Below, in pieces: positions 4,065 to 23,345 of a stretch of 64,000 bases of DNA (the stretch's first letter is position 1; every line of letters begins with the position of its first letter). Under the pieces are notes generated by a model. It was not told the DNA's origin, did not search any database, and saw nothing but the letters and a program-made list of their open reading frames with translations. The translations under genes were made by a program, and so were the position numbers. This DNA is from Sneathiella sp. HT1-7 (GTDB lineage: Bacteria; Pseudomonadota; Alphaproteobacteria; Sneathiellales; Sneathiellaceae), in NCBI RefSeq assembly GCF_020731145.1, contig NZ_JAJFZN010000002.1, positions 310,001 to 374,000 on the forward strand, written 5' to 3'.

Positions 4065-4195
4065 ATCATTACTCCGGGGGAAAATGTCGCGCAGGCCAAA
4101 GGGTTGGCCGGGCAGGGGCGTTTGGAATTAGGGTGCGGATTTCGCAATGTCATTACGCTCATCATGATCCTCCGTCATGCAGCAGAAATTGATAC

Positions 4196-4350
4196 AGTTG
4201 ATGGCAGGTCTCCTGGCTTGCGAATGGCACCGGCACTTACCTTCCCGATTGTCTCAGTGGTTTTTTGTGCAGGCTAGTCGCATACAGTTGCGGGGACAGC
4301 CGCGGCATTGACCCATGGATCGCACCGCATTCCCTTATAATCCCTGATTG
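4196..4350 (-). promoter_or_regulatory. Cobalamin (AdoCbl) riboswitch
   Basis: Read on the minus strand, the leader of cobW contains the conserved blocks of the cobalamin riboswitch in order: GGGAATGCGGTGCGA (4320-4334), CCGCGGCTGTCCCCGCAACT (about 4284-4303), GCCTGCAC, CCACTGAGAC, GGGAAGGTAAGTGCCGG, and finally the B12 box AAGCCAGGAGACCTGCC (4203-4219). Its 3' end is about 135 nt upstream of the cobW start. No T-run terminator is visible between them. A short hairpin (GGCCAAAGGGTTGGCC, 4094-4109) sits just upstream of the cobW ribosome binding site, so control of translation seems more likely than attenuation; that part is inference. Confidence 0.93.
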
Positions 4351-4659
4351 GGAACCATCGGAGCGGACGCTACGGCGGAAAGCGTTGCCTGTCAATCCAT
4401 TGACGGTGCTTTTATCGATTTGCCCAATGGTCCGGGCTTTTTTAGGATGCCCCCTCGACCGGCTTCCGTTCAGAGTAGTCCAAAACAGAGCCCCCGGTGA
4501 TTCTGCGAGACAGAAATCATCAGTCCTGCCAACGATATTGAGATCCATCTCATTTAGTATTGGAAATGGCGTAATTATTCGAACTCGGCATCCCTTAAAC
4601 TGCTTCGTGATTGCAGAATGCAGTTTGTTTTCGCAAATTTATCCTGTAGTTTCTTTGCC
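4351..4659. other. Intergenic region between the riboswitch and the MlaF-like gene
   Basis: About 300 bases between two divergent transcription units. It should hold the promoter of the riboswitch-cobW-cobN unit on the minus strand and the promoter of the ATPase gene on the plus strand. Short open frames cross it on both strands, but none has a convincing ribosome binding site or recognisable product. I see no RNA gene, repeat or terminator here. Confidence 0.5.
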
Positions 4660-6273: not shown

Positions 6274-6387
6274 AAGATGGAAATGATGCAGAAAACATGC
6301 CGTTGAGCGATGCGTGCCTTGCGCTTTTTTATCCGTAATCGTACCCTTATTTTTTAACCGCTTTTCTTGCAGGTTTCGCAGCGCACA

Positions 6388-7812
6388 ATGCACCAACTTA
6401 CGGATATTGCCATCATTGCCACGATAGCCCTGATGTTCGGGATGATCATGACACGGCTTAGGCAGCCGGCAATTGTCGGTTACTTGCTAACCGGAATGGT
6501 GCTGGGGCGTTCGGTTTTCGGGTTTGTTGAAGATCGTGAAAATGTTGAAATTCTAGCCGAGCTTGGGGTGTTGCTGCTGCTCTATCTGATCGGGATGGAA
6601 CTCAACCTGAAGTCCTTTATGCGCATCTGGAAAACGGCAATTGGCGGCGTTTTTCTTCAGGTTGCGGTCTCTTATGTTGTCGTCGGACTGATTGCACTTT
6701 TTCTGGATTGGCCGTGGGAATTGACCTTACTTCTGGCCTTCAGCCTGTCGATCAGTTCGACCGCCGTTGCAGTTAAAATTCTCGAAGACATAGGGGAACT
6801 TCACCAGAGGACCGGTAATATCGCGGTGGGTCTTCTCATCGCACAGGATCTTGCGGTGGTGCCGATGCTGCTTATCGTTGGCAGCCTCTCAGGTGAGGCG
6901 TTGAATGTACCCGTACTCCTCTTGACACTCGGACTGGCGGTGGCCTTCCTGATAGGTCTTATTCTCTTCCTGAGCCGCAGGGAACGCATTCACCTGCCAT
7001 TCTTGAAAGCCATTTCCGGTCATGCGGACCTTACGCCCTTGTTCGGGATTGTTTTCTGTCTCGGGCTTGCGGCGATTAGCGGCCTTTTCGGTATGTCTCC
7101 TGCGTTTGGGGCGTTTCTTGCCGGCCTTATCATTGGGAACAGCCAGGAACGAAAAGGTATCGTCGAAGCAACGCAGCCGATCCAGTCGATTTTGCTAATG
7201 ATCTTTTTTCTTTCCATCGGCCTGCTGATAGATGTCACCTATATCTGGCAGAATATTGGCCTTGTCCTGTTGATGCTGCTGCTGGTGATTGTCGGAAAAA
7301 CGGCCATCAATATCGTCATTTTGAGGGTAACGGGCGTTGACTGGCGTTCCGCCTTTATCGCTGGGACCGCATTGGGCCAGGTAGGGGAATTCTCTTTTCT
7401 TCTTATGGCAACGGGGAGCGCAAGCGGCTATGTGTCGCGTGATATCTCTCAGTTGATGATTACGGTGATTGCGCTCAGTCTGATGATCAGCCCGCTCTGG
7501 CTTCTGACGGCCCGGCGCGCGCAGAGCGTTGCAGCCGGTCAGGCCAGCAATTTCCAGGTCTTCTGGAATAAGGCTTACGGTAAGGAGACCTTGGCAGTAG
7601 TTCGCATTTTCAGGGCAACGATAGGATATCTCGGCTCATTAACAGGCGGAACGTCGTCGCAGGCGCAGACCGCGGCCCAAACGGATGCCGGAGAAGTGGC
7701 GTCGCCTTCCCGCGCGGAAGGATCGGAAATCATCATCCAGAGTGAAGATGCTGCATCCTATCAGGCAATTCTGGAAGATGAGCGGGGCAGCGATCAAAAA
7801 GACAAGAATTAG
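6388..7812 (+). CDS. Kef-type monovalent cation:proton antiporter (CPA2 family)
   Basis: An integral inner-membrane protein of 474 aa with about 12 hydrophobic segments covering residues 5-385, followed by a hydrophilic cytoplasmic tail of about 90 residues rich in Ala, Glu and Asp. Family features include an N-terminal RLRQPAIVGYLLTGMVLG segment, LAELGVLLLLYLIGMEL, the SLSISSTAVAVKIL segment and GLLIAQDLAVVPML, which carries the transport-site Asp. GQVGEFSFLL is typical of the last helices. Such proteins exchange K+ or Na+ for H+. There is no full TrkA-N (RCK) domain, so it is shorter than KefB/KefC. The ATG at 6388 (MHQLTDIAI) is chosen over an upstream TTG at 6367. Confidence 0.9.
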   Translation: MHQLTDIAIIATIALMFGMIMTRLRQPAIVGYLLTGMVLGRSVFGFVEDRENVEILAELGVLLLLYLIGMELNLKSFMRIWKTAIGGVFLQVAVSYVVVGLIALFLDWPWELTLLLAFSLSISSTAVAVKILEDIGELHQRTGNIAVGLLIAQDLAVVPMLLIVGSLSGEALNVPVLLLTLGLAVAFLIGLILFLSRRERIHLPFLKAISGHADLTPLFGIVFCLGLAAISGLFGMSPAFGAFLAGLIIGNSQERKGIVEATQPIQSILLMIFFLSIGLLIDVTYIWQNIGLVLLMLLLVIVGKTAINIVILRVTGVDWRSAFIAGTALGQVGEFSFLLMATGSASGYVSRDISQLMITVIALSLMISPLWLLTARRAQSVAAGQASNFQVFWNKAYGKETLAVVRIFRATIGYLGSLTGGTSSQAQTAAQTDAGEVASPSRAEGSEIIIQSEDAASYQAILEDERGSDQKDKN

Positions 7813-8508: not shown

Positions 8509-9273
8509 ATGGGTCAGTTATCAGATCAGGTTATTATTTTAACAGGTGCCAGTCGGGGTATAGGTGCCGCTGCGGCTTTGGAGCTTGCTGCAAATGGTGC
8601 GAAACTCTGTCTGAGTGCGCGCTCCGCCAGCTCTTGCAGCGGTGTCCTTGAGCAGATCAAGAATTCGGGCGGTGAGGCGTTCGCCGCGAGTTGTGATGTG
8701 TCCGACTATGCAGCTGTTGAAAAAATGACGGCGGAAACGATGGATCGCTTTGGTCGGATCGATGCCTTGGTCAATAACGCTGGCATCGTCGACCCGATTG
8801 GTGCGATCGCGACGAGCGATCCTGACGAATGGGCGCAAAATATTTCGGTTAATCTCGTGGGTGTCTATAACGGGATACGCGCTGTTCTTCCGCATTTCTT
8901 GAAACAGAGTTCTGGGGTGATTATCAACATCAGTTCCGGCGCGGCGCATGGTCCGATGGACGGATGGAGTGCATACTGTTCAGGAAAGGCCGGCGTTTAT
9001 ATGATGACCCGTGCAACAGCGTTGGAGGCTGGCGAAAAGGGTGTTCGTGTATATGGGTTTGCCCCGGGAATCGTCGATACGGACATGCAGGGGGTGATCC
9101 GCGCCTCGGGTATCAATTCGGTCAGTCAAATTCCGCGCGAGAATCTTGCACCGGCTGATGAACCTGCGAAGGCCATTGCCTGGTTGTGCAGTGACGCGGC
9201 CAGTGATCTGGCCGGTCAGGAACTATCGATCCGTGACGAGACACTCCGCAAGAGGATTGGACTTTCTGTCTAA
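8509..9273 (+). CDS. SDR family NAD(P)-dependent oxidoreductase
   Basis: A classical short-chain dehydrogenase/reductase of 254 aa with a Rossmann fold. The cofactor-binding motif TGASRGIG is at residues ~13-20, the NNAG motif at ~87-90, the catalytic Ser in NISSGAA at ~144, and the catalytic Tyr/Lys pair in YCSGK at ~159-163. The substrate cannot be read from sequence; general annotation as a 3-oxoacyl-ACP-reductase-like SDR would be a guess. The start ATG at 8509 gives the expected family N-terminus. The next gene begins 10 bases after the stop, which suggests cotranscription although the products are unrelated. Confidence 0.92.
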   Translation: MGQLSDQVIILTGASRGIGAAAALELAANGAKLCLSARSASSCSGVLEQIKNSGGEAFAASCDVSDYAAVEKMTAETMDRFGRIDALVNNAGIVDPIGAIATSDPDEWAQNISVNLVGVYNGIRAVLPHFLKQSSGVIINISSGAAHGPMDGWSAYCSGKAGVYMMTRATALEAGEKGVRVYGFAPGIVDTDMQGVIRASGINSVSQIPRENLAPADEPAKAIAWLCSDAASDLAGQELSIRDETLRKRIGLSV

Positions 9274-9283
9274 GCCCGCGTCC

Positions 9284-10120
9284 ATGAGGCAAAATGCCCG
9301 ATCTGTTTATGCAAGCCTTAAAAACGCGGTTTGCATTTGCCTCATCTTCTCTATCGCGTTCGTCCTGGTTCCGGAGTTCGTTCGCGCCGAAATGTCTGTC
9401 CCGGATAAGGTGCTTAAGGTTCCGGGAATTAAAGGCGATGATAATCGGGTGCGTGTCAAGATCTCGGATTATCCCTGGCGTATGATCGGACGACTAAACC
9501 GAAGCGGCAGTCATTGCACGGGTATCCTCGTGGGGCCGGTATCGGTACTGACAGCGGCCCATTGTTTTTGGGATAATCGGCGTCAACAATGGTCGGTGCC
9601 AAGCGCGTTTCATTTCGTGCTTGGCTATGAGAAGGGGGACGTGAAGGCACATTCCAGGATCGAGCGGTTTGAATTGCCGGATGGGCGGCAACCTACTTCT
9701 CTTGATAAAAAGTCGACGCTGGAAAATGATTGGGCAATTGCAACATTAAAAAACCCACTTGGGGAGGAATTCGGCTTTGCGCCTGTAGCCGCTTTTAATC
9801 TTCGCGAATTAAAAGATGTTCTCGCCAGCGGAGCTGTTGTTGTTCAGGCTGGCTATAGCCGGGATATTGCACATATGTTGACCGCAGATAAAGATTGCGA
9901 GATCAGCAGTATCCAGCAAAGTAAATCCGGCTTGCTGTTGCGGCACCAATGTGATGCAACGCAGGGCGATTCGGGCTCTCCTCTTTTTCTGTATGACGGA
10001 AAGTCGTACTCACTTATCGGAATTCATGTTGCGACAATGTCGAATTCCAAGGGGATGAACGATGGAATTGCGGTGTCCTTGGACATGTTCAGGAACCGTG
10101 TGTCACAACTGCAAAAATAA
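9284..10120 (+). CDS. Secreted trypsin-like serine protease (S1 family)
   Basis: A 278-aa protein with an N-terminal signal peptide (hydrophobic VCICLIFSIAFVLVPEF, cleavage probably after VRA near residue 35) and a chymotrypsin-fold protease domain. The triad is visible: His in TAAHC (~86), Asp in ENDWAIA (~148) and Ser in QGDSGSP (~230). The frame is open upstream into the SDR gene, but the ATG at 9284 gives a proper signal peptide. It should act in the periplasm or outside the cell. It lies next to a type I secretion and LapG-like region but has its own Sec signal, so a functional link is only suggested by position. Four or more Cys residues could form disulfides. Confidence 0.9.
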   Translation: MRQNARSVYASLKNAVCICLIFSIAFVLVPEFVRAEMSVPDKVLKVPGIKGDDNRVRVKISDYPWRMIGRLNRSGSHCTGILVGPVSVLTAAHCFWDNRRQQWSVPSAFHFVLGYEKGDVKAHSRIERFELPDGRQPTSLDKKSTLENDWAIATLKNPLGEEFGFAPVAAFNLRELKDVLASGAVVVQAGYSRDIAHMLTADKDCEISSIQQSKSGLLLRHQCDATQGDSGSPLFLYDGKSYSLIGIHVATMSNSKGMNDGIAVSLDMFRNRVSQLQK

Positions 10121-10593: not shown

Positions 10594-12660
10594 TTAGCCC
10601 TTCTTGCTTTTCTCGATATTTGCCTTGAAGTCGGCACCGGTTTCAGTCTCGAAAAAGCGCATCATCGCATCAACAACTTCTGGGTCGTATTTTTCCGGAT
10701 TGAGTTTAAACACGCGAAGGGCCTCGTCAACACTGATAGCCTCGCGGTAAGAACGCGGTGAAATTCGTGCAATCAGGATATCCGCCATCCCGAGAATGCG
10801 GGCCGGCATATCGATTTCATCCTTTGTTAGGCCTTTTGGATAACCGGTCCCGTCAAGAAGCTCGTTAATTTGGGTGACGGCATCAAGGACTTCTTTTTCC
10901 ACATCGGCGTTACTTAGAATCTTTTCGGCGATCAATACATGTTTCTGCATCACTTTCTGTTCTTTTTCACTCAGCCGTACATCCTTTTCCCTAATCTCGC
11001 GCGGGATGGATATTTTACCGATCTGTGAAAGATGCGCACCGGTGTTGATTATTTTGATCATTTCAGGAGACAGCCCCAGCTCCACTGAGATGTGATTGGC
11101 AATCTGCGCCATTCGAATGGAATGATCTGACAGATAAGGGTCATTAGCTTCCAGCATCTGGGCAAGAACAGTAATGGCTTTGCGATCCATTTCCTCTTTC
11201 CGGCGCTGGAATTTCACATAGTCGGTGATGTCACTGCTGACTGTGACAATGCCAAGGAATGCTCCGTCTTCATTGAGAAAGCGGGATTTAGCGATCCTCA
11301 GAATCCGCGTTCCGTCCCGCCTTTCAATTTCGACAAAGGCGTTGACCGTCTGTTCCGTCGCGATGGCCTTGCGATCATGTTCAGCAAGATCTCGGGCGGC
11401 CTTTTCGCCAAACAACTCACGATCCGTTTTGCCGGGAATGGATCGAAGCGGGTAATCAGCGACCCTGGCGAGGGATGGATTCGCGTAGATGTAACGCCCT
11501 TCCGGGTCGGTTAGGCCGATCAGTTCATCTATTGTGTTGTTGATACTTCCCAGCAACCGTCGTTGTGTGTTTATCTGGTCTGCAAATTCCTTGTACTGTT
11601 GGGCGAGTGCGCGGGCGCTTTGTCCCTTTAGGGTCAGCCAGATCACGACGAGAACGGTAAAGACAATAATGAGGAAGCTGAACGCGAGGCCAATGACAAA
11701 CATCGCATAGGTCCGAAGCGGCGCCAATGCTTTATCGCTGGACACCTGCTGAAAGACCACAAAGTGAGTGTTCGGAACCAGCGCCCCGGAGGAAAAGACA
11801 CTGTTGCTGTTTTCTCGAGCTATTTCCTGAAAGTTTGTTGCGCCGGGCGCAAGCTGCGCATCTTCCTGAGGTGCAATAAATGGAGGTTTTAGCGGGAACA
11901 GCTCATAATATTTTCCATCCGCTTCCTGATAAAGCTTAGTCACATCCGGCTGATTATTATAGAGCGGTGCGTTCAATAGTTCTGAAAGCGCATTTGATGC
12001 CGGGACGGTGAGTAGCAGAGCCCCGACTATGACATCATTACCGCTGCTGTTGGGTTCGCGTTGCGCCGCATGAATTGGCAGGACGAAGTCAAAAACAAGC
12101 CCGGCATCGCTCGCACGAAGAGGTAGGAAAGTTACTTCTGTTTTCTCATACTGCGCTTGCGCGGTTGAGCGTTGATTGTCCGTTAGGGACGGAGCATTTC
12201 CGGAAGCAAGATAAGCACGGCCATCTTTACCGATAAGGTATGCTCCAATAAGTTCCGCCTGATTGACGAAATTTGAGAACGCGTTCTGCATGTAAGGCAG
12301 TTGATCATTCAGTGATTTTGGGAGCTTGCCGTCACCCACAAAATTAATTTCTGTGGCAAACAGCTTGAAAAGTTCATTTTCTGCGATCCGGTTGGCGTCT
12401 TCGACTTCACCCGCAAGCCAGGTTTCCATCACTTGTGCCTTGCCGGCCGCGCTCACATCAAGGCGTTTTTGAAGCTCCCCGACTAATTCCTGTTTGCGAG
12501 ACTCTATTGCGTAGTCACACAGAAAGTATCCCAGGATCGCAAAGACGATGAGAAAAAACGCGGCAATCTTCCAGGGGGCTTTGCGAAAAAGGTTGCTATC
12601 GCTTGGCGCACGGTCGGAAAGAAATGAATTTAGTTCAAGCTTGGCTGTTGCATCAGTCAT
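10594..12660 (-). CDS. Membrane sensor with Cache-like periplasmic domain, PAS and degenerate HD-GYP domain
   Basis: A 688-aa inner-membrane protein. TM1 is at ~30-50, followed by a ~270-residue periplasmic region resembling a Cache sensor, TM2 at ~320-345, a PAS domain at ~370-490 and an HD-GYP-like domain at ~500-670. The HD-GYP scaffold is clear (NDPYLSDHS, IGKISIP, DGTGYPKGL), but the metal-binding residues are gone: HDxGK reads SQIGK (11011-11040) and the HHE of HHExxDGTGYP reads QIN-E (about 10842-10880). It is therefore unlikely to hydrolyse c-di-GMP and may be a receptor. The ATG at 12660 is chosen over 12681 because AGGGAG lies 7 bases upstream; the start overlaps the LapG-like gene by 8 bases. 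The topology equals that of LapD, the c-di-GMP receptor that controls LapG. Confidence 0.88.
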   Translation of the reverse strand: MTDATAKLELNSFLSDRAPSDSNLFRKAPWKIAAFFLIVFAILGYFLCDYAIESRKQELVGELQKRLDVSAAGKAQVMETWLAGEVEDANRIAENELFKLFATEINFVGDGKLPKSLNDQLPYMQNAFSNFVNQAELIGAYLIGKDGRAYLASGNAPSLTDNQRSTAQAQYEKTEVTFLPLRASDAGLVFDFVLPIHAAQREPNSSGNDVIVGALLLTVPASNALSELLNAPLYNNQPDVTKLYQEADGKYYELFPLKPPFIAPQEDAQLAPGATNFQEIARENSNSVFSSGALVPNTHFVVFQQVSSDKALAPLRTYAMFVIGLAFSFLIIVFTVLVVIWLTLKGQSARALAQQYKEFADQINTQRRLLGSINNTIDELIGLTDPEGRYIYANPSLARVADYPLRSIPGKTDRELFGEKAARDLAEHDRKAIATEQTVNAFVEIERRDGTRILRIAKSRFLNEDGAFLGIVTVSSDITDYVKFQRRKEEMDRKAITVLAQMLEANDPYLSDHSIRMAQIANHISVELGLSPEMIKIINTGAHLSQIGKISIPREIREKDVRLSEKEQKVMQKHVLIAEKILSNADVEKEVLDAVTQINELLDGTGYPKGLTKDEIDMPARILGMADILIARISPRSYREAISVDEALRVFKLNPEKYDPEVVDAMMRFFETETGADFKANIEKSKKG

Positions 12661-13372
12661 TTTGGTTGCTCCCTGCGGCATCTTGCGCGGTCAGGAAATC
12701 AAGGGGAATATGGGCCCATCTCCTATTTTCATTAACGGAGTAGAACGGGACGTAATAGTTGACGAGGCGTTCTTCCAGTATGGTATCGTTCAGGTTGTCG
12801 AGAACATAGCGTTTGCCCCGGCGCTCGACGCTTAATACGGCATGTGCCTTGTTGCGCAGGACATCGTTGGCGATAACAATACGCATGGCATCGGGGTCAA
12901 AACCGAGCTCTTTAAGGCTGACATATTTCATGATGGCGAAATCTCTTGATCCGCCGCCATTTGAAATAAACTCAAGCGGCGACGCCCAATGGCTGTCAGA
13001 TAATGCCCCTGCGTCGTCGGGAATAAATTTCCAGCCATTTAGAAAACTGTTCAGTTCCTGCATCTGGATGCGCTTAGGAGAATTTTGTAGTTCTGCGATT
13101 TTCGTGCGCCACAACGTCATCTGTTGCGACTCACAATCCTCGATGCGGGCATCGCATTTGGCGGCAGCATTTGCGAGCTGGGGAAAACTCGCTTTAACTT
13201 TGAGCCAGAGGGGTAGGGCTGCCAGATTATCTGATGAAATTTCGACTAAGCCGAAAAGGCCCTTTTCCGTCACGTCCGCGTGAGCGGTCGCACCGGTCAC
13301 TGGGCCTAAAAGGAAAAGACCCGTTAGCAGAAAAGCGGTGGCGTGCTTTATCATTCTATTGTGTATCATCAC
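12653..13372 (-). CDS. LapG-like transglutaminase-like protein lacking the catalytic cysteine (predicted pseudo-protease)
   Basis: A 239-aa protein of the bacterial transglutaminase-like cysteine peptidase family (DUF920, peptidase C93), with a signal peptide at the N-terminus (hydrophobic ~10-30, cleavage after AHA) and thus periplasmic. LapG of this family cleaves type I secreted adhesins near their N-terminus. The family core GDCEDFA(I/V)xKY reads GGSRDFAIMKY here, so the catalytic Cys is Ser (residue 142, TCA codon at 12947-12949) and the flanking acidic residues, reported as calcium ligands in LapG, are Gly and Arg. His (NKAHAVL) and Asp (YVLDNLN) of the triad remain. Its ATG overlaps the HlyD stop (ATGA) and its end overlaps the HD-GYP gene, so the three are translationally coupled. 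Likely a non-catalytic binding partner or decoy; slow Ser-based activity cannot be excluded. Confidence 0.9.
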   Translation of the reverse strand: MMIHNRMIKHATAFLLTGLFLLGPVTGATAHADVTEKGLFGLVEISSDNLAALPLWLKVKASFPQLANAAAKCDARIEDCESQQMTLWRTKIAELQNSPKRIQMQELNSFLNGWKFIPDDAGALSDSHWASPLEFISNGGGSRDFAIMKYVSLKELGFDPDAMRIVIANDVLRNKAHAVLSVERRGKRYVLDNLNDTILEERLVNYYVPFYSVNENRRWAHIPLDFLTAQDAAGSNQND

Positions 13373-14697
13373 CGTTCCCTCAATGCCGTATCCCGTGTTT
13401 TCAGGATAGGTTTCAGGATATAGTCCAGCACTGTTTTATGGCCTGTGAGGATATCGACAGAGGCGACCATGCCGGGAATAATTGGATAGGAGTTTTCCCC
13501 GCGTTTGAGGAAATTCTGGTTTGTACGAACGATGATCTGATAATAGCTTTCGCCGGATTTCTCATCAACAATCGTATCGGCACTGATCCGTTCAAGCTTG
13601 GCTGGCAATCCGCCATAAATTGAGTAGTCATAAGCCGTGATCTTTACTGTGGCTTCTTGTCCTGGCCGCAAAAAAGCGATGTCGGCCGGGCGAATATTCG
13701 CTTCCACCAAAAGCGTATCGTCGATTGGCACTATTTCAATAATATCCTGACCCGGTTTGACGACGCCGCCAATGGTCTGGATTTTAACGTCCTTTACTTC
13801 ACCAGTTACAGACGAGCGCACATCCGTCCGTGCAACACGATCCTTGACACCGAGAATGGCCTGACGAGCCGCCTCATACTCCGCACGTGTCTGGCTCAGT
13901 TCTTGTGATGCAGTACTTTTGAAACTGAGAATTTTTTCCTCAATTCGCTGATTAGCTTCCTTAAGCGCGCCTTCAACACGTGGCTTGGAAAGCTCGGATG
14001 CAGAAATCTGCCCTTTCAGGTCGTTAATTTCCCGGCGTAGCTTGAGAGATTCCACCTTTGGGACAATCCCTTTCTTGACGAGAGGTGCCGTAATTTCCAT
14101 TTCTTCATTGGCGAGTCCGAGGCTGGCACGGAGCTGTCTCAGGCGACCATTAATCTCTGCAATTTCTTGGTTTCGCTGTTGCGCCTGTTGCCGCAAGATT
14201 TGTATTTGCGATTGGAGTTCAGCCTGCCGCGCATTATACAGATTTAGCTCGCGCACGGAAATGTCCTTACGCTCCGCCAGAAGTTCAGCAGGGAAGGTAA
14301 GGGGTTCACCCGTGGCCTCCGCTTCAAGACGGGCGATACGCCCCATCAGGTTAAGATAATTGGATTCGATTTCTCCCGCGCGGGAGGAAAAGCCGGTATC
14401 GTCAATGCGTAGAAGAATCTGGCCCTTTTCGACGATATCGCCTTCATGTACCAGCAATTCTCTGAGGATGCCGCCTTCCAGATTCTGGATAATTTGTACT
14501 TGGCTGGACGGGATGACCTTGCCGTCGCCGCGGGTGACTTCATCCAGAACCGCATTTTTTGCCCAGATGAACCCGACAACGAAAAAGGCGATTACACCAA
14601 ACAGCAGGAGGAAAGAACGCGGATGCGGGCCTTGTACTCTCGCGGCTACGACGTCCGACGCGAAATCTGAGTCATTCCATTTTAAATTGTCTGCCAT
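13369..14697 (-). CDS. HlyD-family type I secretion membrane fusion protein (LapC-like)
   Basis: The periplasmic adaptor of a type I secretion system, 442 aa. It has a short cytoplasmic N-terminus, one TM segment (~30-50, FLLLFGVIAFFVVGFIWA), a first lipoyl half-motif (IIQNLEGGILRELLVHEGDIVEKGQ), a long coiled-coil region (~120-290, rich in Gln, Glu, Arg and Leu), and the second lipoyl half and beta-barrel ending with the HlyD C-terminal signature (IIPGMVASVDILTGHKTVLDYILKPI). It bridges the ABC exporter and the TolC protein. It starts 2 bases after the ABC gene stop and overlaps the next gene by 4 bases, so it is within one operon. Confidence 0.95.
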   Translation of the reverse strand: MADNLKWNDSDFASDVVAARVQGPHPRSFLLLFGVIAFFVVGFIWAKNAVLDEVTRGDGKVIPSSQVQIIQNLEGGILRELLVHEGDIVEKGQILLRIDDTGFSSRAGEIESNYLNLMGRIARLEAEATGEPLTFPAELLAERKDISVRELNLYNARQAELQSQIQILRQQAQQRNQEIAEINGRLRQLRASLGLANEEMEITAPLVKKGIVPKVESLKLRREINDLKGQISASELSKPRVEGALKEANQRIEEKILSFKSTASQELSQTRAEYEAARQAILGVKDRVARTDVRSSVTGEVKDVKIQTIGGVVKPGQDIIEIVPIDDTLLVEANIRPADIAFLRPGQEATVKITAYDYSIYGGLPAKLERISADTIVDEKSGESYYQIIVRTNQNFLKRGENSYPIIPGMVASVDILTGHKTVLDYILKPILKTRDTALRER

Positions 14698-14699
14698 AG

Positions 14700-17084
14700 T
14701 CAGTCCTCCGGTCCGTTTCGCTGTGGTTTTGACACGGTTGCCGAAACAGTTTTGGAGGTTGAGTTTCCACTCTGACCGAGTTTCAGAATTTCATCGCGCG
14801 GGCCATCCGCCGCGATCTTGCCATTTCCAAGGACAATGATCCGATCAACCAGCGAGAAGAGGGAGGTGCGATGCGTCACGAGAAGCAAGGTCTTTCCTTG
14901 AATATAGTCTTGAAGACGGCTAATCAGCCGTCGCTCTGAATTGATGTCCATGGCACTTGTCGGTTCATCGAGCATCAGGATAGGCGGATTGGGCAGGAAA
15001 GCGCGGGCAAGACCAATTGTTTGCCGTTGCCCTCCGGACATGGTCGCGCCTTTTTCTCCAACATGCAGGTCATAGCCATGTGGATGCCGAGAAATAAAAT
15101 CATGTACACCGGAAAGCTTCGCGGCATTCAGGATCATTTCATCGTCGGCACGCGGATGCCCCAGGATGATGTTTTGCCTAACAGAGGCCTGGAACAGGGT
15201 GATATCCTGCATGACGCTGCCAATGCTCCGGCGGATATCGGAAGGGTCGATTTGCCGGATATCCGTGCCGTCAATCAGTACGGCGCCTTCATCGGGCTCA
15301 TAGAGATTGATTAGCAGGCGCGAAATCGTTGTCTTCCCTGATCCAACGGGCCCGATAATTCCGACTTTCTCACCCGCCCGTATCTTGAATGATACATTGT
15401 CGAGCGCAGGGATGTCGGTGCCCGGATATTTGAAAGTTACATCCTTGAATTCGATATCACCCTGGATATTCGGGCGGCTGAGTTGACGTTTTTCCGCGCC
15501 CCGTTCAACCGGGAGGGACATAATATGATTAAGTCCCTTCAAGGCGACGATAGCTTGATTGAGGCGGGTAAGCAGCCCGGCGATCTGGCCAAGCGGTGCC
15601 ATTGTCCGCCCTGTTAAAATGGTGCAAGCGATCAAGGCGCCTACTGTAATAGTCGAGTCCGGTTCTCCCATTAACATGACGCCATAGACGACCACGCCGA
15701 CGGTTACAAGTTGCATGGCAGCAGCGGAAAGATTGATGCCGAGGCCGGCGAAGAAGCGCGCGGCAACGCTTGTTTCAGCGGTCTTCCCGACGAAGCGTTC
15801 CCATTCCTTCTGCATATGGCCTTCAATTCCCATGCTTTTAACGGTGTCGAGGGCGGAGATTGTTTCAACGATAACCCCATGCTTCTGGGCGGCTTCTTCC
15901 GACGTTTTGGAAACGGCGCGGCGCATGGGCCATTGCAGACACAGCCCGATAAGCAGAACAACAGGGACGGCAACAGCGGGAATGATAAAAAGCGGGCCAC
16001 CGATCAGGTAAATGATAAACAGGAAAATCGCGAGGAAGGGTAGATCGACGAGCGCCGTTACGGTAACGGACGTGAAGAAATCCCGCAATGTTTCAAACTC
16101 TCGCAGGTGATTGGCAAACGCGCCAGCAGACGCAGGACGGGCCTTTACCTGAAGGTTGAGAACTTGCTCGAATATTCGGCTGGACAGCAGAATGTCAGCC
16201 CGTTTACCGGCATTGTCGACAAAATACGACCTCAGTGATTTAAGTAACAGATCGAAGCCGATCACGGTGATTACACCAATTGCCAGCACCCATAATGTTT
16301 CGATCGCCCGGTTGGGAACGACCCTGTCATAAACATTCATAATAAAAAGGGGGCTTGCCAGGGCGAAGCTGTTGATCAGAAAGGCGGCGATAATGACCTG
16401 AATATATGTCGGCCAGAATTGCCACATGGTCCCCCAAAACCATGAGCCGGGCCTATCCTGTAACTTTTCATCCTTATCAACGCGGTACTTGAAACTTGGT
16501 CGGGTCAGAATAGCGTACCCGGCATATTCAGCGTCCAGTTCTGTGAGCGGCAGGCTGTCGGAGCCTTCCCCTGTTTCCGGGAAGATAACTTTGGCTTTCC
16601 TGTCTTCCCGCGAGAGCAGGATACAGGCGCGCCGGTCATTGAGCAGGACGACGCAAGGTAGAACGGCTTCCGGTATCTTATCGAGATTTCGATTGGTGAT
16701 GCGGGCACTGATGCCGACGCGTTCCGCGGCCCGGACAAATAGCGCCGGTGTTAATTTGTTGTCTTCAAGTGGGAGGCCGTAGGCTAGCGCATCCGGAGTG
16801 CGTGGATCATCGAAAAGCTTAGTCAAAGCCGCGAGGCAGCCAAGCAGGGGATCCTGATCAGAGCGCGTGATTTCGGAAAGGTTGACCTGCCAGTTTCCCT
16901 TACTTTTGATTTTTGTCCGAAGGGCAGCCTCTGTGGTCTCTAGCTTACTTGCTGCTGCAGTCGGCTTACCTGTTTTCAATTTGGTGTCCCTTGTCTTTTT
17001 GTTTCCGGCTTTTGTGACGAATAGATCGTCCGTTGTGTTGACATCGAGCCTCGCGGATTTGCGTGAATTTTCGCTCACCGGCAT
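14700..17084 (-). CDS. Type I secretion ABC exporter with degenerate C39 domain (LapB-like)
   Basis: A 794-aa inner-membrane exporter. A poorly conserved, charged N-terminal ~75 residues is followed by a C39-like domain (~75-205) in which the motif reads DPLLGCLAAL; the catalytic Cys position is not conserved, as in CLD-type exporters of RTX proteins. The ABC transmembrane domain spans ~220-510, and the ATPase domain ~550-770 has Walker A GPVGSGKTT, signature MSGGQRQ and Walker B ILMLDEP. This architecture matches LapB and related adhesin exporters. The ATG at 17084 has GAGGG unusually close, so translation may begin at a slightly different point. First gene of the operon that continues with HlyD, the LapG-like protein and the HD-GYP-like protein. 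Confidence 0.95.
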   Translation of the reverse strand: MPVSENSRKSARLDVNTTDDLFVTKAGNKKTRDTKLKTGKPTAAASKLETTEAALRTKIKSKGNWQVNLSEITRSDQDPLLGCLAALTKLFDDPRTPDALAYGLPLEDNKLTPALFVRAAERVGISARITNRNLDKIPEAVLPCVVLLNDRRACILLSREDRKAKVIFPETGEGSDSLPLTELDAEYAGYAILTRPSFKYRVDKDEKLQDRPGSWFWGTMWQFWPTYIQVIIAAFLINSFALASPLFIMNVYDRVVPNRAIETLWVLAIGVITVIGFDLLLKSLRSYFVDNAGKRADILLSSRIFEQVLNLQVKARPASAGAFANHLREFETLRDFFTSVTVTALVDLPFLAIFLFIIYLIGGPLFIIPAVAVPVVLLIGLCLQWPMRRAVSKTSEEAAQKHGVIVETISALDTVKSMGIEGHMQKEWERFVGKTAETSVAARFFAGLGINLSAAAMQLVTVGVVVYGVMLMGEPDSTITVGALIACTILTGRTMAPLGQIAGLLTRLNQAIVALKGLNHIMSLPVERGAEKRQLSRPNIQGDIEFKDVTFKYPGTDIPALDNVSFKIRAGEKVGIIGPVGSGKTTISRLLINLYEPDEGAVLIDGTDIRQIDPSDIRRSIGSVMQDITLFQASVRQNIILGHPRADDEMILNAAKLSGVHDFISRHPHGYDLHVGEKGATMSGGQRQTIGLARAFLPNPPILMLDEPTSAMDINSERRLISRLQDYIQGKTLLLVTHRTSLFSLVDRIIVLGNGKIAADGPRDEILKLGQSGNSTSKTVSATVSKPQRNGPED

Positions 17085-17679
17085 GCCCTCATTTTTCGCC
17101 GGCTTTCACGCGACCCAATCATGCCGGCATATCCAGCAGATCCGCCTCGCGTTCGGGATTTGAGAGAATTGAACTCTCCATGGTTCCTTTGCCCTGCCAT
17201 ACCCTTACTTTCCCGCTCAGTCCTCAATAACAATTTCGGCGATTTCATGTTGCGATGGAGAAATGATTGCGGCCGTTCGAACTTCCCCTTTGTATTGTCT
17301 CGCAGCTTCCATCCTGCTTTTACAAAATCCTTTATGCGGAACGGACTACTTTTCCACGTTGGTCATTCAACGCTTATTTGGTGAAAATGCAGTTAACATA
17401 TTGGCAAAAGTGTATTTTCTAAAATTATGGAATGTGCGCCGGTCCTTTGAATTAATACGCCGCTCGTTTAGGCTTCTACGCCAATATATTACGTATAGTT
17501 GCGGGGTTTTCGCCTATTTTTCAACAAAAATTAACCATAACTGGTAGTGATTTAAATGACATTGAAAAGTGGCGCCCTTTCCGTACGCGCCAAGAGGCGT
17601 ATTTGCGACAGGGTCGGATGGCGAAGTTGTTATGATAGGGCAGCTTGAATGGATTGTTGTAATTTTACCACAGGCTGTT

Positions 17680-17708
17680 GCGAAGACCACTAAATATATG
17701 GTCTTCGC
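17680..17708. repeat. Perfect 10-bp inverted repeat
   Basis: GCGAAGACCA (17680-17689) and TGGTCTTCGC (17699-17708) are perfect reverse complements separated by 9 AT-rich bases. There is no T-run on either side, so it does not look like an intrinsic terminator. It could be an operator for a dimeric regulator or an RNA hairpin, placed about 150 bases upstream of the TolC gene and facing the divergent exporter operon. Confidence 0.6.
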
Positions 17709-17725
17709 CGTTATATAGAGTTGAT

Positions 17726-17757
17726 CGACGGCGGAAAGAAAGCGTAGATTGCCGTCG
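17726..17757. repeat. 7-bp inverted repeat before the TolC gene
   Basis: CGACGGC (17726-17732) and GCCGTCG (17751-17757) are perfect reverse complements with an 18-base spacer. The repeat lies directly upstream of an AT-rich TATTATAATT stretch that may contain a promoter. An operator role is inference. Confidence 0.4.
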
Positions 17758-17860
17758 TATTATAATTAAGTTTTGGATGGATGTTTTGCTCAGGCATTAC
17801 GCATCAGGCGAGCGAAAATTTCTTCGACGTTAAGCAAAACAGACAAAGTGGGAGAGGGGT

Positions 17861-19207
17861 ATGAAGCTTAGAAACCGTGCGGGGAAGACAATGAATGTAC
17901 TTTCCGCCAGTGTTCTAACGGCGGTCTTCGGAAGTTATATAGCGGTGGGGGCCGCGCAATCCGAAACATTGGTGGATGCAGTCCAGCAAACGGTTTCGAC
18001 CTATCCGGAAATCGCCGAGGCTTCGGCAAATCGCCGCGCGATTGATCAGGAATTAAGACAGGCGGAAGGACTTTATCTTCCGTCGCTCGATCTTGAAGCG
18101 GGCATTGGTTATGAGTGGACTGATACAGTTACCATTGATAACGAAGATTTGCGCCGCACGGAATCGAGCCTTCTGCTCGTGCAGACCCTTTACGATGGTG
18201 GGTTTCGTAGCGCAGAAGTAGACCGGCAGGGAAATCGTGTCGATAGTGCTGCGTATCGGGTCCGGGAACGGGCCGAAGCCATCGCTCTTGACGCGGTGCG
18301 GTCCTATCTTGATACGCTTCGCAGTCAACAAATTGTTGAACTGGCGAAGGAAAATGTCGAAAAACATCGCCGGACACTGAATGAAATCCAGGACAGGGTG
18401 AGAGCCGGACAAAGCGGTATTGGTGATGACCAGCAGGCGCTGGCGCGTCTTGCTGCAGCTGAAGACACTCTCGTTGAAACTTTGCGCGCGCAGGACGATG
18501 CGGAAATTACCTATCGGAGAGTTGTGGGTGTACAGCCGGTAAATCTCGAACTTCCTGACTTCAGCGACAGCGTTCTTCCCGACAATATTGATGATATCGT
18601 GGCGATTGCGCTGGAAGGTAATCCGGACATTATGTTCGCTTCTTCAGATATCAAAACGTCTGATGCGGAAATTCGGGCGACTCAGGCAAGCTACTATCCG
18701 ACAGTTAATCTGGAGGTAGGAGGCTCTGCGGATAATAATCTCGATGGGGTTGAAGGCCATAACGACGATTTATTGGCGATGCTTCGGTTGCGCTACAACC
18801 TCTATAGAGGGGGGATCGACGAAGGCCGTGAGAAGGAAGCGTTAGCACGCAAAGCAGAGACGGAGCAGCGCAAACGCCGTTATGAACGCCTCGTAGAAGA
18901 GGAAGTTCGACGCAGCTGGAGTTCACTCGCCCGTTCGGAAGCGCGTTCGGAAGTTCTCGCAGCGGCTGTTGTTGCCAATACTGAGGTTGCCTCGACTTAC
19001 AAACAGGAATTTGAAATCGGGCAGCGTGATCTGCTGGATCTGCTGGATGCGGATAATGAACTGTTTAACTCCCGGACGTCGCTGGTGACGGTGGAGTATT
19101 CGGTTAGGTTTGCAAAATATCGGTTGCTTGCCACTATGGGCCGGTTGAACTCGACACTCGGTGTGACCCTGCCCGCGGAAGCAACGCCGATGGAGAAAAA
19201 AGGCTAA
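17861..19207 (+). CDS. TolC-family outer membrane channel of type I secretion
   Basis: An outer-membrane efflux protein of 448 aa with a signal peptide (~1-32, cleavage after GAAQS or nearby). Two OEP repeats (~35-215 and ~235-435) form the alpha-helical barrel. Typical TolC/LapE (AggA) features are the N-terminal LVDAVQQTVSTYPEI, TLYDGGFRSAEVDRQGNRVDSAAYRV, LRYNLYRGGIDEGREKEA and EFEIGQRDLLDLLDADNELF. It has a strong ribosome binding site (GGGAGAGGGGT directly before the ATG). It diverges from the ABC-HlyD operon and very likely completes that secretion system. An intrinsic terminator follows its stop. Confidence 0.95.
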   Translation: MKLRNRAGKTMNVLSASVLTAVFGSYIAVGAAQSETLVDAVQQTVSTYPEIAEASANRRAIDQELRQAEGLYLPSLDLEAGIGYEWTDTVTIDNEDLRRTESSLLLVQTLYDGGFRSAEVDRQGNRVDSAAYRVRERAEAIALDAVRSYLDTLRSQQIVELAKENVEKHRRTLNEIQDRVRAGQSGIGDDQQALARLAAAEDTLVETLRAQDDAEITYRRVVGVQPVNLELPDFSDSVLPDNIDDIVAIALEGNPDIMFASSDIKTSDAEIRATQASYYPTVNLEVGGSADNNLDGVEGHNDDLLAMLRLRYNLYRGGIDEGREKEALARKAETEQRKRRYERLVEEEVRRSWSSLARSEARSEVLAAAVVANTEVASTYKQEFEIGQRDLLDLLDADNELFNSRTSLVTVEYSVRFAKYRLLATMGRLNSTLGVTLPAEATPMEKKG

Positions 19208-19230
19208 CAATATCGAAAGTCTATAACAAG

Positions 19231-19263
19231 AGCCGCGCTTAGACGTAATGTGCGGCTTTTTTT
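19231..19263 (+). terminator. Intrinsic terminator after the TolC gene
   Basis: AGCCGC (19231-19236) pairs with GCGGCT (19252-19257), followed by a run of T residues to 19263. It lies 24 bases after the TolC stop codon and ahead of the convergent LapG-like gene. Confidence 0.85.
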
Positions 19264-19275
19264 ATGTCTGCGGCG

Positions 19276-19938
19276 CTAGGGCTTGTGACGCCACCATCCA
19301 ATCTCATTGACAGAATATATCGGTCGGTAATGTCGGATGCGAGTGGCATCAACGACTTGTCCGATTTGATTGTCGAGCACTAGATTTTTGCCTTTATAAT
19401 TCACAACCAGAATTGCATGGGCGATGCCGAGATTAACATCCTGCAGAACGACAATTTTCATGTCCTTCGCTGACCACCCGAGGGCGCGCAGCGTAAAATA
19501 CTTGACGATCGCGTAGTCTTCGCAATCACCGAACCGGGCAAAGAATTCTTTAGGAATTTCCCAATAATCACGCACTCCCCAATTGATGGGATCAAGAATA
19601 TAGCGAAAAAGATTCATGTGCCGATTGATTTTTTCAAGCTGCTTTTCTTTCGGCAGTGACCGCCATTCCTCTATCAGGGCGCGCCATTTCTGATGGGCGC
19701 AGCGATTATATTTTCCTGAAACGCAATCGCCAGGCCTATCCTTGTAGGTTGCGAGCACCTTTCGCCATTTTGGAAAGGGTTTGAGGCCGGAATAGGGGGT
19801 TGCCTTATAACCGAACAGGTCACCTGCCTTTGCGTCAGCGAGAGATGGTGCTGCAATAACGCAGCAGGCAAGAATAAGTGCTGCGCATATCGTGGCAAAT
19901 CCGGGTCTTGTTCCTGTCACCGCGTTGGTTCCTGCCAT
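19276..19938 (-). CDS. LapG-like periplasmic cysteine protease (transglutaminase-like, C93), triad intact
   Basis: A 220-aa member of the bacterial transglutaminase-like cysteine peptidase family. It has a signal peptide (hydrophobic ~14-34, cleavage after LADA) and acts in the periplasm. The triad is complete: Cys139 in RFGDCEDYAIVKY (codon 19522-19524), His in GIAHAIL and Asp in LVLDNQ. LapG homologues cut the retention module of type I secreted adhesins and release them from the cell when c-di-GMP is low. A further Cys pair (GDCVSGKYNRC, ~70-80) may form a disulfide. The gene diverges from a membrane HD-GYP-like gene and converges on the TolC gene, which places it within the secretion locus. 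It is probably the active protease of the pair. Confidence 0.93.
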   Translation of the reverse strand: MAGTNAVTGTRPGFATICAALILACCVIAAPSLADAKAGDLFGYKATPYSGLKPFPKWRKVLATYKDRPGDCVSGKYNRCAHQKWRALIEEWRSLPKEKQLEKINRHMNLFRYILDPINWGVRDYWEIPKEFFARFGDCEDYAIVKYFTLRALGWSAKDMKIVVLQDVNLGIAHAILVVNYKGKNLVLDNQIGQVVDATRIRHYRPIYSVNEIGWWRHKP

Positions 19939-20121
19939 CTGGTTAAAAAAGCCTCCTGTTCAGGCGCATTATGGGCAACAAATCATTAACAAAGACTGAG
20001 CAGGACATCTAATGTCATTGCGTCGTTAAGTAATTTTTGGGTAATTTAGATCGGTGATTTACCTATCTTAAAGAGTTTCAAGGCATTCTGCCGTACAGTG
20101 AAATATATAACCGGGGCATTT

Positions 20122-22257
20122 ATGTCGGATAATCAATTAGATGGTACGGAAAAGAAAAGCACCTACAAAGCGCTCTCCTTAGGCGTTTTGCTGCTTATGG
20201 CTGTCGTCGTTGCCGGCATTTGGGGCACTTTCAAATTTGTCGAGGAACAGCGTTCGCGCGACCTCCGAAACTGGGAGGTTCGCCTTGGTATTGTCGCGGA
20301 TAGCCGCGCGGCAAGCGTCGATGACTGGCTGCGCAAGCAGGAACAGGCTATTGGCACTCTCGCGAATAATGCGTCTTTACAGGTGTATCTAACCCAGTTG
20401 GTTATTGAGACGGCAGAGAATGGCAACTCTATCGCTGAAGTGCCGGAGGCGGGTTATCTCATTAATCTACTGAATAATCAGGCTGTTATCAGCGGATTTT
20501 GGGAGCCGGAGGAGCCGCAAATCCGTGCAAATGTGGCGCGGCCCGGTCGGGCAGGCATCGGGCTTACGGACGCAACAGGAAAGCTTCTGGTCTCCAGCGG
20601 AAATATGCCCCCAATGAACCCGACAATACGGGCCGCCATGGCGAAAGCCGGGGATGGTGAGCCTGCTCTGATCGATCTTTATGAGGGGATTAATGGCGAT
20701 CCGACCATGGGCTTTGTCTGGCCGATTTATGCGGTGCAGGATGAAGGGAGCCCAAAGGATATTATTGGATATGTTGTTGGTCTTCGGACGGTGGAAACCT
20801 CACTATTTCCGCTATTGTTCCAACCGGGTGATACATTGCAGACGGCAGAAAATTATCTTGTCCGCAAGGATGGGAAGCTCGTGCAATATATCTCTCCGCT
20901 GGCGGATGGCACGCTCGCTCTTGCCCGCAAGCTAAGCGCACAGAATGATCTGGCTGCGGCATTCGTAATCGAAAATCCGGGAAGTTTTGAACTTGCCTCC
21001 AATTATCTCGGGAGCAAGGTTCTCGTAACGGGGCGTGCGTTGACGGCTGCGCCTTGGTTCCTTGTTCGAACAGTCTCGGAACAGGAAGCGTTGGCCGAAA
21101 CCGATCAGCGCCTTTCAACGATGCTCGGCATCTTTATATTGCTGATTTTTGCAGTCGCAGGAACGGTGGTTGCCGTCTGGCGGCATGGCACCTCCCTTCG
21201 CGCGGCGGAGCTAGCGGTGCGCTATAAGGGCATGGCGGAGCAGTTGAGAGAGCGGAGCGAATTTCTGAAAATTGTGACCGATCAGCAGCCAACGTCTATT
21301 GCTGTTTTCGATGCAGAGGATAAATACACATTTGCGAATAGTGTCGCCGCCGAAGACGTGGAGATATCGCAAGATGAAATGATTGGCAAGAAAGCCGCGA
21401 GTGTTCTTGGGCCTGAGCAGGCACGGGAAATCATCGAGATGACAAATCTCGTGCGTCAGGACTATGAACCTCGTTCGTTGATTAGCCGTATAAAGGCGTC
21501 GGAGGAAAGTGCAGCGGATCGGGTGATCAAGTCAGATTTTGTGCCCCTGCGATCAGCGCGGGTGAACAGCAAGGAAGTTCTCACTGTATTTCAGGATATT
21601 TCTGATGTTGTAGTTGCACAGGAGCGTCGCGAGTCCGTATTGCGTACACTTGTTTCAACATTGGTGGCTTTTGTGGATCGCCGCGACCCTTATTCCGCAG
21701 ATCAATCCCGTCGGGTCGCGAAGGTTGCGGTGGCAATTGCTGAAGAAATGGGCGCGCCAGATGAACTGGTGCGGACAGTTGATATCGCGGGTAACCTGAT
21801 GAATATCGGCAAGATTCTCGTTTCGCCAGAAATTCTGACTAAGACGAAGAACCTGACTAAGAAGGAAATGGAAATCATTCGGAACAGTCTGGTCGCCAGT
21901 GCGGATCTCCTGGATGAAGTTGACTTTGATTTGCCGGTTGCCGCCACATTGCGCCAATTGCAGGAAAATTTTGACGGCAGTGGCCAACCAAACGGCCTGG
22001 TCGGCATGGAGATCAGTGAACCAGCTCGGATTATTGCCGTCGCCAATGCCTTTGTCGGCATGGTCAGCCCGCGCGCTTACCGGAGCGCACTAAGCTTCAG
22101 CGCGGCAGTGAAGAATCTTTTAGAAGATGCCGATACGCGGTATGACCGACGTATGGTCAGCGCTCTGATCAATTATCTCGAGAACCGGGGAGGCCGCGAG
22201 AGCTGGAAATACTTCTCTGAGAATGTAGAGAAAGACTCTACTGAGGGCGGAGGGTAA
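20122..22257 (+). CDS. Second membrane sensor with Cache-like domain, PAS and degenerate HD-GYP domain
   Basis: A 711-aa inner-membrane protein with the same architecture as the 10594-12660 product: TM1 (~18-38), a periplasmic Cache-like region (~40-330), TM2 (~335-358), PAS (~385-500) and an HD-GYP-like domain (~505-690). The catalytic residues are even more eroded: the first His is Gln (SADQSRRVA), HDxGK reads MNIGK (21793-21816) and HHExxDGxGYP reads LQENFDGSGQP (from about 21955). Hydrolysis of c-di-GMP is not expected; a receptor role is inferred. The ATG at 20122 has CCGGGG upstream and is preferred to a GTG at 20098. It diverges from the intact LapG-like gene, 180 bases apart, so the two likely share a control region. 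Confidence 0.88.
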   Translation: MSDNQLDGTEKKSTYKALSLGVLLLMAVVVAGIWGTFKFVEEQRSRDLRNWEVRLGIVADSRAASVDDWLRKQEQAIGTLANNASLQVYLTQLVIETAENGNSIAEVPEAGYLINLLNNQAVISGFWEPEEPQIRANVARPGRAGIGLTDATGKLLVSSGNMPPMNPTIRAAMAKAGDGEPALIDLYEGINGDPTMGFVWPIYAVQDEGSPKDIIGYVVGLRTVETSLFPLLFQPGDTLQTAENYLVRKDGKLVQYISPLADGTLALARKLSAQNDLAAAFVIENPGSFELASNYLGSKVLVTGRALTAAPWFLVRTVSEQEALAETDQRLSTMLGIFILLIFAVAGTVVAVWRHGTSLRAAELAVRYKGMAEQLRERSEFLKIVTDQQPTSIAVFDAEDKYTFANSVAAEDVEISQDEMIGKKAASVLGPEQAREIIEMTNLVRQDYEPRSLISRIKASEESAADRVIKSDFVPLRSARVNSKEVLTVFQDISDVVVAQERRESVLRTLVSTLVAFVDRRDPYSADQSRRVAKVAVAIAEEMGAPDELVRTVDIAGNLMNIGKILVSPEILTKTKNLTKKEMEIIRNSLVASADLLDEVDFDLPVAATLRQLQENFDGSGQPNGLVGMEISEPARIIAVANAFVGMVSPRAYRSALSFSAAVKNLLEDADTRYDRRMVSALINYLENRGGRESWKYFSENVEKDSTEGGG

Positions 22258-22271
22258 TTCCTCTAATTCCT

Positions 22272-23345
22272 TTAAAGGAGACCTGTGGCCTGTAGGGCCG
22301 CCGGGCCAGTCAGGATGAGCTTGACCACTTCGCTTTGTCGGCTGGTGTCGGTTTTGCGGAAGACTTGTCTCAGTTGAGAGCGAACTGTGTGCATGCTGAC
22401 CCCCCATTGCTCTGCGAGGTCATCAAGCTTATGACCATTGGTCAGGCCAAGCGCCAAGCGCCCTTCCGCTGGTGTCAGGCCATATAGCTTACAAATTGAT
22501 TCTACAGAAAGCTCAACTGGTTCAGCCGGGTCAGAGACAAATAGAACGGCACCCTTTCCGGCGGCCCCGGTTCCGATAGGGGCGACCATGACATTCAACG
22601 GATAGTCACTTTCCATCCGGGTCAGGGAAATGGCGAAATCGCCTTCTGATTTGCTGTCGCCGCCGGGGGAGAGTGTGTCGGACAACAGCTTGGCGAGTGC
22701 CCGGCTTTCACCTGGCAGTGTTGCACGGCATATCCGGTCAGTACCAACAACCAGACCGTCACCCTTTTCCAGATAGCGTTTTGCCTTTCCATTGAAGAAA
22801 AGGATTTTCGTATCAGCTGTTACCAGGATAACCCCGATTGGAAGCCTGTTCAGTACGGCCGTCGCAGAATCAAGAAGTGGTGCCGATTCTGCGCTTTGCC
22901 GATGACCCTGATGGCGCTGAATGGCGTTGAGCAAGCAGCGCGACATGCCATCTGTCGAGAGTTGACTTTTGATGAGGTAGTCCTGCGCGCCCAACCGAAT
23001 AGCCTCACGGCCGATATTTTCGTTATCATCCGTGAGCACAACAATCGGTGTGTGGGGAGTTTTTTCTCCAAGGAGCGATACCGCTTTGATCCTGTCTTCC
23101 TGAGTTTCTGTCAGATCAAGAATAATGACTTCGCCCTGCTGACCGTGACCGGCTTTCACATAACTGTCGACAGAAGCAATATGTTCGAACGAAAACTTTG
23201 CCGTCGACGCATTGGACAGCAACCAACCTAATTGTTGGGCATCCTCTTCCTTTTGTCCAATAAAGTGAACTGTTGCAGTAGAGTTTTTGTCCATTGAATA
23301 TGGTTTTCCGACTTGTTTATTCGGTTTCCTTGACATGACCGCCAA
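22272..23345 (-). CDS. Response regulator with REC, PAS-like middle and LuxR-type HTH
   Basis: A 357-aa regulator. The REC domain (~25-140) keeps the phospho-acceptor Asp (VIILDLTE), the Thr (VVLTDD) and the Lys (YLIKSQ). The middle (~155-285) resembles a PAS fold (LPIGVILVTADTKILFFN). A LuxR/GerE HTH lies at ~290-345 (LTPAEGRLALGL, SMHTVRSQLRQVFRKT). It should bind DNA when phosphorylated by an unlinked histidine kinase. It could also start at the ATG at 23294 (MDKNSTATV). It converges on the second HD-GYP-like gene with only 14 bases between, so it may regulate the secretion locus; that is inference from position. Confidence 0.9.
   Translation of the reverse strand: MAVMSRKPNKQVGKPYSMDKNSTATVHFIGQKEEDAQQLGWLLSNASTAKFSFEHIASVDSYVKAGHGQQGEVIILDLTETQEDRIKAVSLLGEKTPHTPIVVLTDDNENIGREAIRLGAQDYLIKSQLSTDGMSRCLLNAIQRHQGHRQSAESAPLLDSATAVLNRLPIGVILVTADTKILFFNGKAKRYLEKGDGLVVGTDRICRATLPGESRALAKLLSDTLSPGGDSKSEGDFAISLTRMESDYPLNVMVAPIGTGAAGKGAVLFVSDPAEPVELSVESICKLYGLTPAEGRLALGLTNGHKLDDLAEQWGVSMHTVRSQLRQVFRKTDTSRQSEVVKLILTGPAALQATGLL

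Follow-up and report, generated by a model that had tools for sequence, protein, structure and literature searches.

A probable DvhDG-type adhesin-release switch in Sneathiella with a live-looking LapG protease and a predicted LapG pseudoprotease

Two membrane receptors with degenerate HD-GYP domains, each adjoining a LapG-like protein, surround a complete type I secretion system (T1SS) in an eight-gene block of a marine alphaproteobacterium of the genus Sneathiella. The block lies in a stretch of 64,000 nucleotides (the window; G000:C4:310001-374000), and we assign it with high confidence to the DvhDG kind, in which an inactive HD-GYP receptor controls a LapG-like protease. The locus probably encodes an adhesin-release switch in which one LapG-like protein, LapG2, would cut the adhesin and the other, LapG1, would be a pseudoprotease that modulates the cut; such a switch would probably set the moment at which the cell releases its surface adhesin. 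The receptor architecture, the dead HD-GYP sites, the dead LapG1, the live-looking LapG2, their conservation and the adhesin motif are read from sequence, and from these we infer a ligand, a restraint on the protease and a role for LapG1. All eight genes lie where an initial annotation of the window had placed them, and its account of two HD-GYP-like membrane proteins, each beside a LapG-like protein, around a complete T1SS agrees with gene, Pfam, NCBIfam and transmembrane predictions alike.

LapG1 (12653-13372, minus strand), which has a signal-peptide-like N-terminus, and LapG2 (19276-19938, minus strand) are the only genes found in the genome that match Peptidase_C93 (PF06035); both do so above the cut-off, and both fall below the equivalog cut-off of NCBIfam CystProtLapG. 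The initial annotation had treated the two proteins as equivalent, which they are not. LapG2 is a live-looking cysteine protease that carries an intact GDCED motif (Cys139, codon 19522-19524) together with the catalytic His and Asp; all three features are present in 24/24 copies of the order, and the LapG2-type copies read from beyond the order all have GDCED as well. LapG1 reads GGSRD at the same place, where the catalytic Cys is replaced by Ser142 (codon 12947-12949) and the flanking calcium-binding acids are gone, and it is predicted to be a conserved pseudoprotease. The Cys is absent from every LapG1 read in the order; Sneathiella copies invariably have Ser in its place, and those of the sister genus (G001) have Pro. 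The flanking acids are lost in the clade of the window and retained in many other species (GDSED), while the His is present in 94% and the Asp in 100% of copies, S. litorea being without the His.

Two metagenome-assembled genomes (MAGs) extend this pattern. The MAG B37T1B8 (L137), with a Sneathiella-like arrangement, encodes a LapG1 with Gly at the Cys position that has also lost the His and the Asp, and an intact LapG2 adjoins it; DvhD1 of this MAG is short (558 residues). LapG1 of the MAG RI_95 (L100/L136) has Asp at the Cys position, and the same genome holds a second, intact LapG1-type gene (L099). Forms without the Cys occur where the genome or the neighbourhood also has an intact LapG gene, although a few incomplete MAGs show one gene only. 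In other orders, most DvhD1-linked relatives of the LapG1 type have GDCED intact (L097, L099, L101, L103, L104, L105, L152, L153, L155, L157 and L159). It might be argued that the locus holds two ordinary, independent DvhDG modules and that LapG1 is catalytic through a Ser-His-Asp arrangement, perhaps on another substrate; the invariance of the Ser within Sneathiella, the high frequencies of His and Asp and the flanking acids of many species are in keeping with such an enzyme, but the Pro, Gly and Asp found at the same position, the acids missing from the clade of the window and the His missing from S. litorea make it improbable.

Varying Pfam scores had suggested that LapG1 decayed within a single clade, an idea that was rejected when all copies of the order proved to lack the Cys. 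In pairwise comparisons LapG1 has a dN/dS of 0.04-0.10 and LapG2 one of 0.05-0.11, rough values with dS large and often >1.5, which suggest purifying selection on LapG1 that is about as strong as on LapG2. The predicted LapG1 fold (predicted local distance difference test, pLDDT, 87) matches that of LapG (4fgq) with a template-modelling (TM) score of 0.73, normalised by target as for all models described here. Active-site positions that are invariant in LapG2 (D138, E140, D141, H174 and their neighbours) vary in LapG1, which has 29 invariant sites of its own, many of them in an N-terminal helical region (residues 38-95). Invariant sites and selection that persist despite a variable active site form the pattern of a pseudoenzyme kept for binding, not of a relic. 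LapG1 is likely non-catalytic; the suggestion that it is the decaying remnant of a lost protease, which the loss of catalytic residues might invite, is scarcely credible against a frame that is open in nearly every copy read, the low dN/dS, the sites particular to LapG1 and a position conserved across the order. A predicted pseudoprotease form of LapG has become fixed in one lineage, and its maintenance by selection after the loss of the cutting residue points to a regulatory job. A literature search for LapG pseudoproteases found no paper.

The receptors DvhD1 (10594-12681, minus strand) and DvhD2 (20098-22257, plus strand) share the order transmembrane segment, dCache, transmembrane segment, PAS and degenerate HD-GYP. 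The predicted transmembrane segments (residues 37-55 and 329-347 of DvhD1, 25-43 and 342-360 of DvhD2) bracket a large periplasmic region; Pfam PAS_4 and HD_5 match both proteins above cut-off, dCache_1 matches below threshold, and no other HD_5 (HD-GYP) genes were found in the genome. The HD metal ligands are replaced by SQ in DvhD1 (codons 11023-11028) and by MN in DvhD2 (21799-21804), and the HH pair by I/N and L/Q, respectively. The degeneracy proposed in the initial annotation is real: neither protein has the catalytic HD and HH residues. The GYP motif is intact in DvhD1 (10837-10845) and reads GQP in DvhD2 (Gln codon 21985-21987).

By sequence, the best matches of DvhD1 in the Protein Data Bank (PDB) are to Desulfovibrio vulgaris DvhD (9rc0, E 1.5e-45; dCache 9rc2, E 3.3e-16), which is also the best match of DvhD2 (9rc0, E 3.4e-40). 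An AlphaFold2 model of DvhD2 (mean pLDDT 81, predicted TM score 0.47) placed the DvhD structures first in a fold search, with TM scores of 0.90 for the HD-GYP domain (9rbz), 0.77 for PAS/HD-GYP (9rc0) and 0.78 for the periplasmic region (9rc2). DvhD is described in PMC13090378 (Nat Commun 2026) as a receptor of the same architecture with HD changed to SQ that binds cyclic di-GMP (c-di-GMP) without hydrolysing it, also accepts 3'3'-cGAMP and controls the LapG-like DvhG.

Mapped on D. vulgaris DvhD numbering, the 19 DvhD1 sequences of the order all have S559/Q560 and keep L577, Y621 (the GYP tyrosine), R650 and Y652; 16 of them also have Y523. Among 17 DvhD2 copies, all have N560 and 16 have M559, the other having Leu, so that MN or LN is found in every copy; DvhD2 retains L577 (one X), M646, R650 and Y652, and Gln replaces Y621 in 14/17. 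Four residues, L577, Y621, R650 and Y652, are common to DvhD and PmGH, an active c-di-GMP-binding phosphodiesterase. DvhD1 holds these four shared contacts and therefore appears able to serve as a nucleotide receptor; for DvhD2 this is less certain. In the window each receptor has 5/8 canonical residues of the c-di-GMP site, with the GYP tyrosine missing from DvhD2. It is possible, if rather unlikely, that the receptors sense something other than c-di-GMP, whether a different cyclic dinucleotide, a ligand of the PAS domain or, from the outside in, one of the periplasmic dCache domain. Most Sneathiella DvhD2 proteins lack the GYP tyrosine, DvhD2 varies at Y652 across the class, dCache domains are often ligand sensors, and cGAMP binding by DvhD itself would fit such a reading; the four contacts kept by DvhD1, the invariance of R650 in both paralogues and the 10 GGDEF domains of the genome argue for c-di-GMP.

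These 10 GGDEF matches, together with 6 EAL matches, all lie outside the window, which holds neither domain, as the initial annotation had noted. Of the six EAL proteins, one combines a transmembrane segment with an EAL domain and the other five are soluble; none has a periplasmic sensor domain (L003 is cut at its N-terminus). LapD_MoxY_N (PF16448) had no match in the genome, and no control genome gave one either. A canonical LapD elsewhere in the genome, which would have offered another controller for the proteases, was looked for and rejected, in that none of the six EAL proteins has LapD topology and no protein combining LapD_MoxY_N, HAMP, GGDEF and EAL was found.

PF06035 is present in 26/26 genomes of the order, and the whole gene block, in the same order, in 18/18 relatives compared, with the qualification that one locus (L053) ends inside DvhD2 and that another (L049), whose sequence holds N, has HlyD and LapG1 joined in a single reading frame. 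Among 241 sampled alphaproteobacterial genomes, 73 have PF06035 and 55 show, at E<=1e-40, a match of the DvhD-like or HD-GYP kind; by a hand count, the two lie no more than ~3 kb apart in 29 genomes of other orders. Conserved linkage of HD-GYP and LapG genes had been set beforehand as a test of the initial annotation, and receptor-protease pairs were found in the 18 relatives and these 29 further genomes of the class.

Across the class, LapG1-type and LapG2-type proteins form two separate groups (support 98/99, with the bootstrap not fully settled and several rows long) and DvhD2 a clade of its own (100/100), on which grounds a recent tandem duplication of the pairs was rejected; D. vulgaris DvhD may or may not group with DvhD1 (approximately unbiased, AU, p 0.052). 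LapG1-type genes usually form a tandem pair with DvhD1 and often follow ABC-HlyD; LapG2-type genes are mostly divergent from DvhD2. DvhDG-related pairs are common in the sampled Alphaproteobacteria in two old forms, one in a T1SS operon and one mostly stand-alone and divergent, and Sneathiella carries both modules around one T1SS. No literature on alphaproteobacterial DvhDG was found; a class-level distribution appears in Fig. 9b of PMC13090378, and prior notice there is possible.

The T1SS consists of a LapB/LssB-type ABC transporter with a C39-like N-terminus (14700-17084, minus strand; TIGR03375, LssB, E 2.3e-285), an HlyD-type membrane fusion protein (13369-14697, minus strand; TIGR01843, E 2e-122) and a TolC-type outer membrane channel (17861-19207, plus strand; TIGR01844, E 2.9e-86), all above cut-off. 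On the minus strand, ABC and HlyD are separated by 2 nucleotides, HlyD and LapG1 overlap by 4 and LapG1 and DvhD1 by 29, a spacing that makes the four genes look like a single operon. The place of lapG1 between the HlyD and DvhD1 genes, with overlaps on both sides, and the concentration of its specific invariant sites in an N-terminal helical stretch that is remote in sequence from the catalytic motif could mean that LapG1 is a mere assembly partner, a structural subunit of DvhD1 or the T1SS without effect on LapG2 activity. Its retention of the LapG fold and of most catalytic His and Asp residues, and the co-occurrence of dead LapG forms with an intact LapG gene, which a need for a live partner would explain, make such a role an outside prospect, somewhat stronger than that of a Ser protease.

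A candidate substrate is encoded elsewhere in the genome. Of 26 genomes of the order, 23 have a match to NF033682 (the LapA retention module) at E<=0.001, in no case reaching the cut-off of this model, and the best match in the genome of the window is a protein of 1346 residues (G000:C7:161546-165586; L086:3547-7587) with FecR/retention, Calx-beta, VWA and T1SS-143 domains, the last above cut-off (E 1.6e-28). The retention module is followed by a linker, FDPDEISPEAG, that resembles the DP...[TAP]AAG site given for LapG/DvhG substrates in PMC13090378. The pattern [FL][DN]P-x(2,3)-[IV]-x-P-[EQA]-[AGS]-G is found in 16/16 adhesin orthologues and in 1/32,000 shuffled linkers, a count that speaks to non-randomness only, as the pattern was written after the alignment had been seen and the orthologues are related. 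Several members of a second adhesin family in the genus have PAAG at the same place. A CHASE2-adenylate/guanylate cyclase gene (L086:1017-3275, minus strand) is divergent from the adhesin gene and lies near it in the relatives compared. The genome also encodes two tandem FecR/retention-like proteins of ~210 residues with signal-peptide-like N-termini (L087:5368-6000 and 6171-6806, on G000:C1); similar small proteins occur in other Sneathiella genomes and could be soluble mimics of the retention module.

In the proposed mechanism the T1SS would export this retention-module adhesin, and DvhD1 and DvhD2 would relay the cytoplasmic level of a nucleotide, most likely c-di-GMP, across the membrane. 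At high c-di-GMP, DvhD1, and perhaps DvhD2 too, would keep LapG2 off the adhesin; at low c-di-GMP, LapG2 would cleave the linker after the retention module, so that the adhesin is shed and the cell freed. LapG1, made together with the T1SS and DvhD1 and under the control of DvhD1, would shield the adhesin linker or retention module, or compete with LapG2 for docking on the receptor. That the role of LapG1 is modulation of LapG2 we rate as an even chance. The kept nucleotide site of DvhD1 stands beside a dead LapG1, and the kept catalytic site of LapG2 beside the eroded nucleotide site of DvhD2; a tentative extension, less likely than not, is that sensing and cutting are divided between two ancient DvhDG modules, with DvhD1-LapG1 acting in trans, gated by c-di-GMP, to shield the adhesin or displace LapG2. 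Several points weigh against the proposed mechanism: the adhesin matches the retention module below the NCBIfam cut-off and carries PEAG instead of [TAP]AAG, Ser, His and Asp are still present in LapG1 of most species, the GYP tyrosine is lost from DvhD2, and LapG2 may not be what LapG1 acts on.

Around these genes, a REC-like/PAS/LuxR-like regulator (22272-23345, minus strand) is syntenic with the block across the order. A trypsin-like secreted protease (9146-10120, plus strand), convergent with DvhD1 and with His, Asp and Ser motifs that look intact, stands beside the block in 17/17 Sneathiella loci compared and is not found there in the sister genus; it may belong to the adhesin-release system. 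The divergent intergenic region between ABC and TolC contains TTAACCAT (17531-17538, plus strand), the CtrA half-site named in PMC3692519, as a single copy in the window and at the same place in 16/19 loci. Across the genome TTAACCAT is not enriched (78 copies vs 95 in the control), and CtrA control of the block is a lead only. A cobalamin riboswitch (RF00174, 99.8 bits) at 4186-4374 on the minus strand is unrelated to the adhesin switch.

Pseudoenzymes that regulate live relatives are well known in eukaryotes, the iRhoms being an example. If the role of LapG1 holds, biofilm adhesin release would offer a bacterial example of a regulatory pseudoenzyme, and the division of sensing and cutting between two modules, if true, would make LapG1 the first pseudoprotease in Lap-type adhesin control, as far as the literature searched shows. 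Cultured Sneathiella species would make the role of LapG1 directly testable by gene deletion.

With regard to known systems, the initial annotation knew of no described LapD of this type, a claim overtaken by the DvhD/DvhG system (PMC13090378), whose DvhD structures are the top PDB matches of both receptors. Its central proposal, a dead HD-GYP receptor that replaces LapD over a LapG-type protease, is well supported; the novelty of the receptor and the equivalence of the two LapG proteins did not survive. Like Pseudomonas LapD/LapG/LapA, the Sneathiella system combines a membrane receptor bearing a degenerate c-di-GMP enzyme domain with a LapG-fold protease, a T1SS and a candidate retention-module adhesin, but its receptor is built of dCache, PAS and HD-GYP domains where LapD has LapD_MoxY_N, HAMP, GGDEF and EAL. 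The receptors share the HD-GYP fold and several c-di-GMP contact residues with the catalytic phosphodiesterases PmGH and PA4781, and unlike these they have no metal-binding HD and HH residues. The closest likeness is to D. vulgaris DvhD/DvhG/DvhA (PDB 9RBZ, 9RC0, 9RC2), in receptor architecture with HD changed to SQ, in the adjoining BTLCP protease and T1SS, and in a candidate adhesin that, like DvhA, would have an N-terminal retention module and a LapG-type linker site. DvhDG was recently described in sulfate reducers as one receptor and one protease, whereas Sneathiella, an alphaproteobacterial host, has two receptor-protease pairs with one protease predicted to be catalytically dead, a second receptor with HD changed to MN and GYP to GQP, and an adhesin with PEAG in place of [TAP]AAG.

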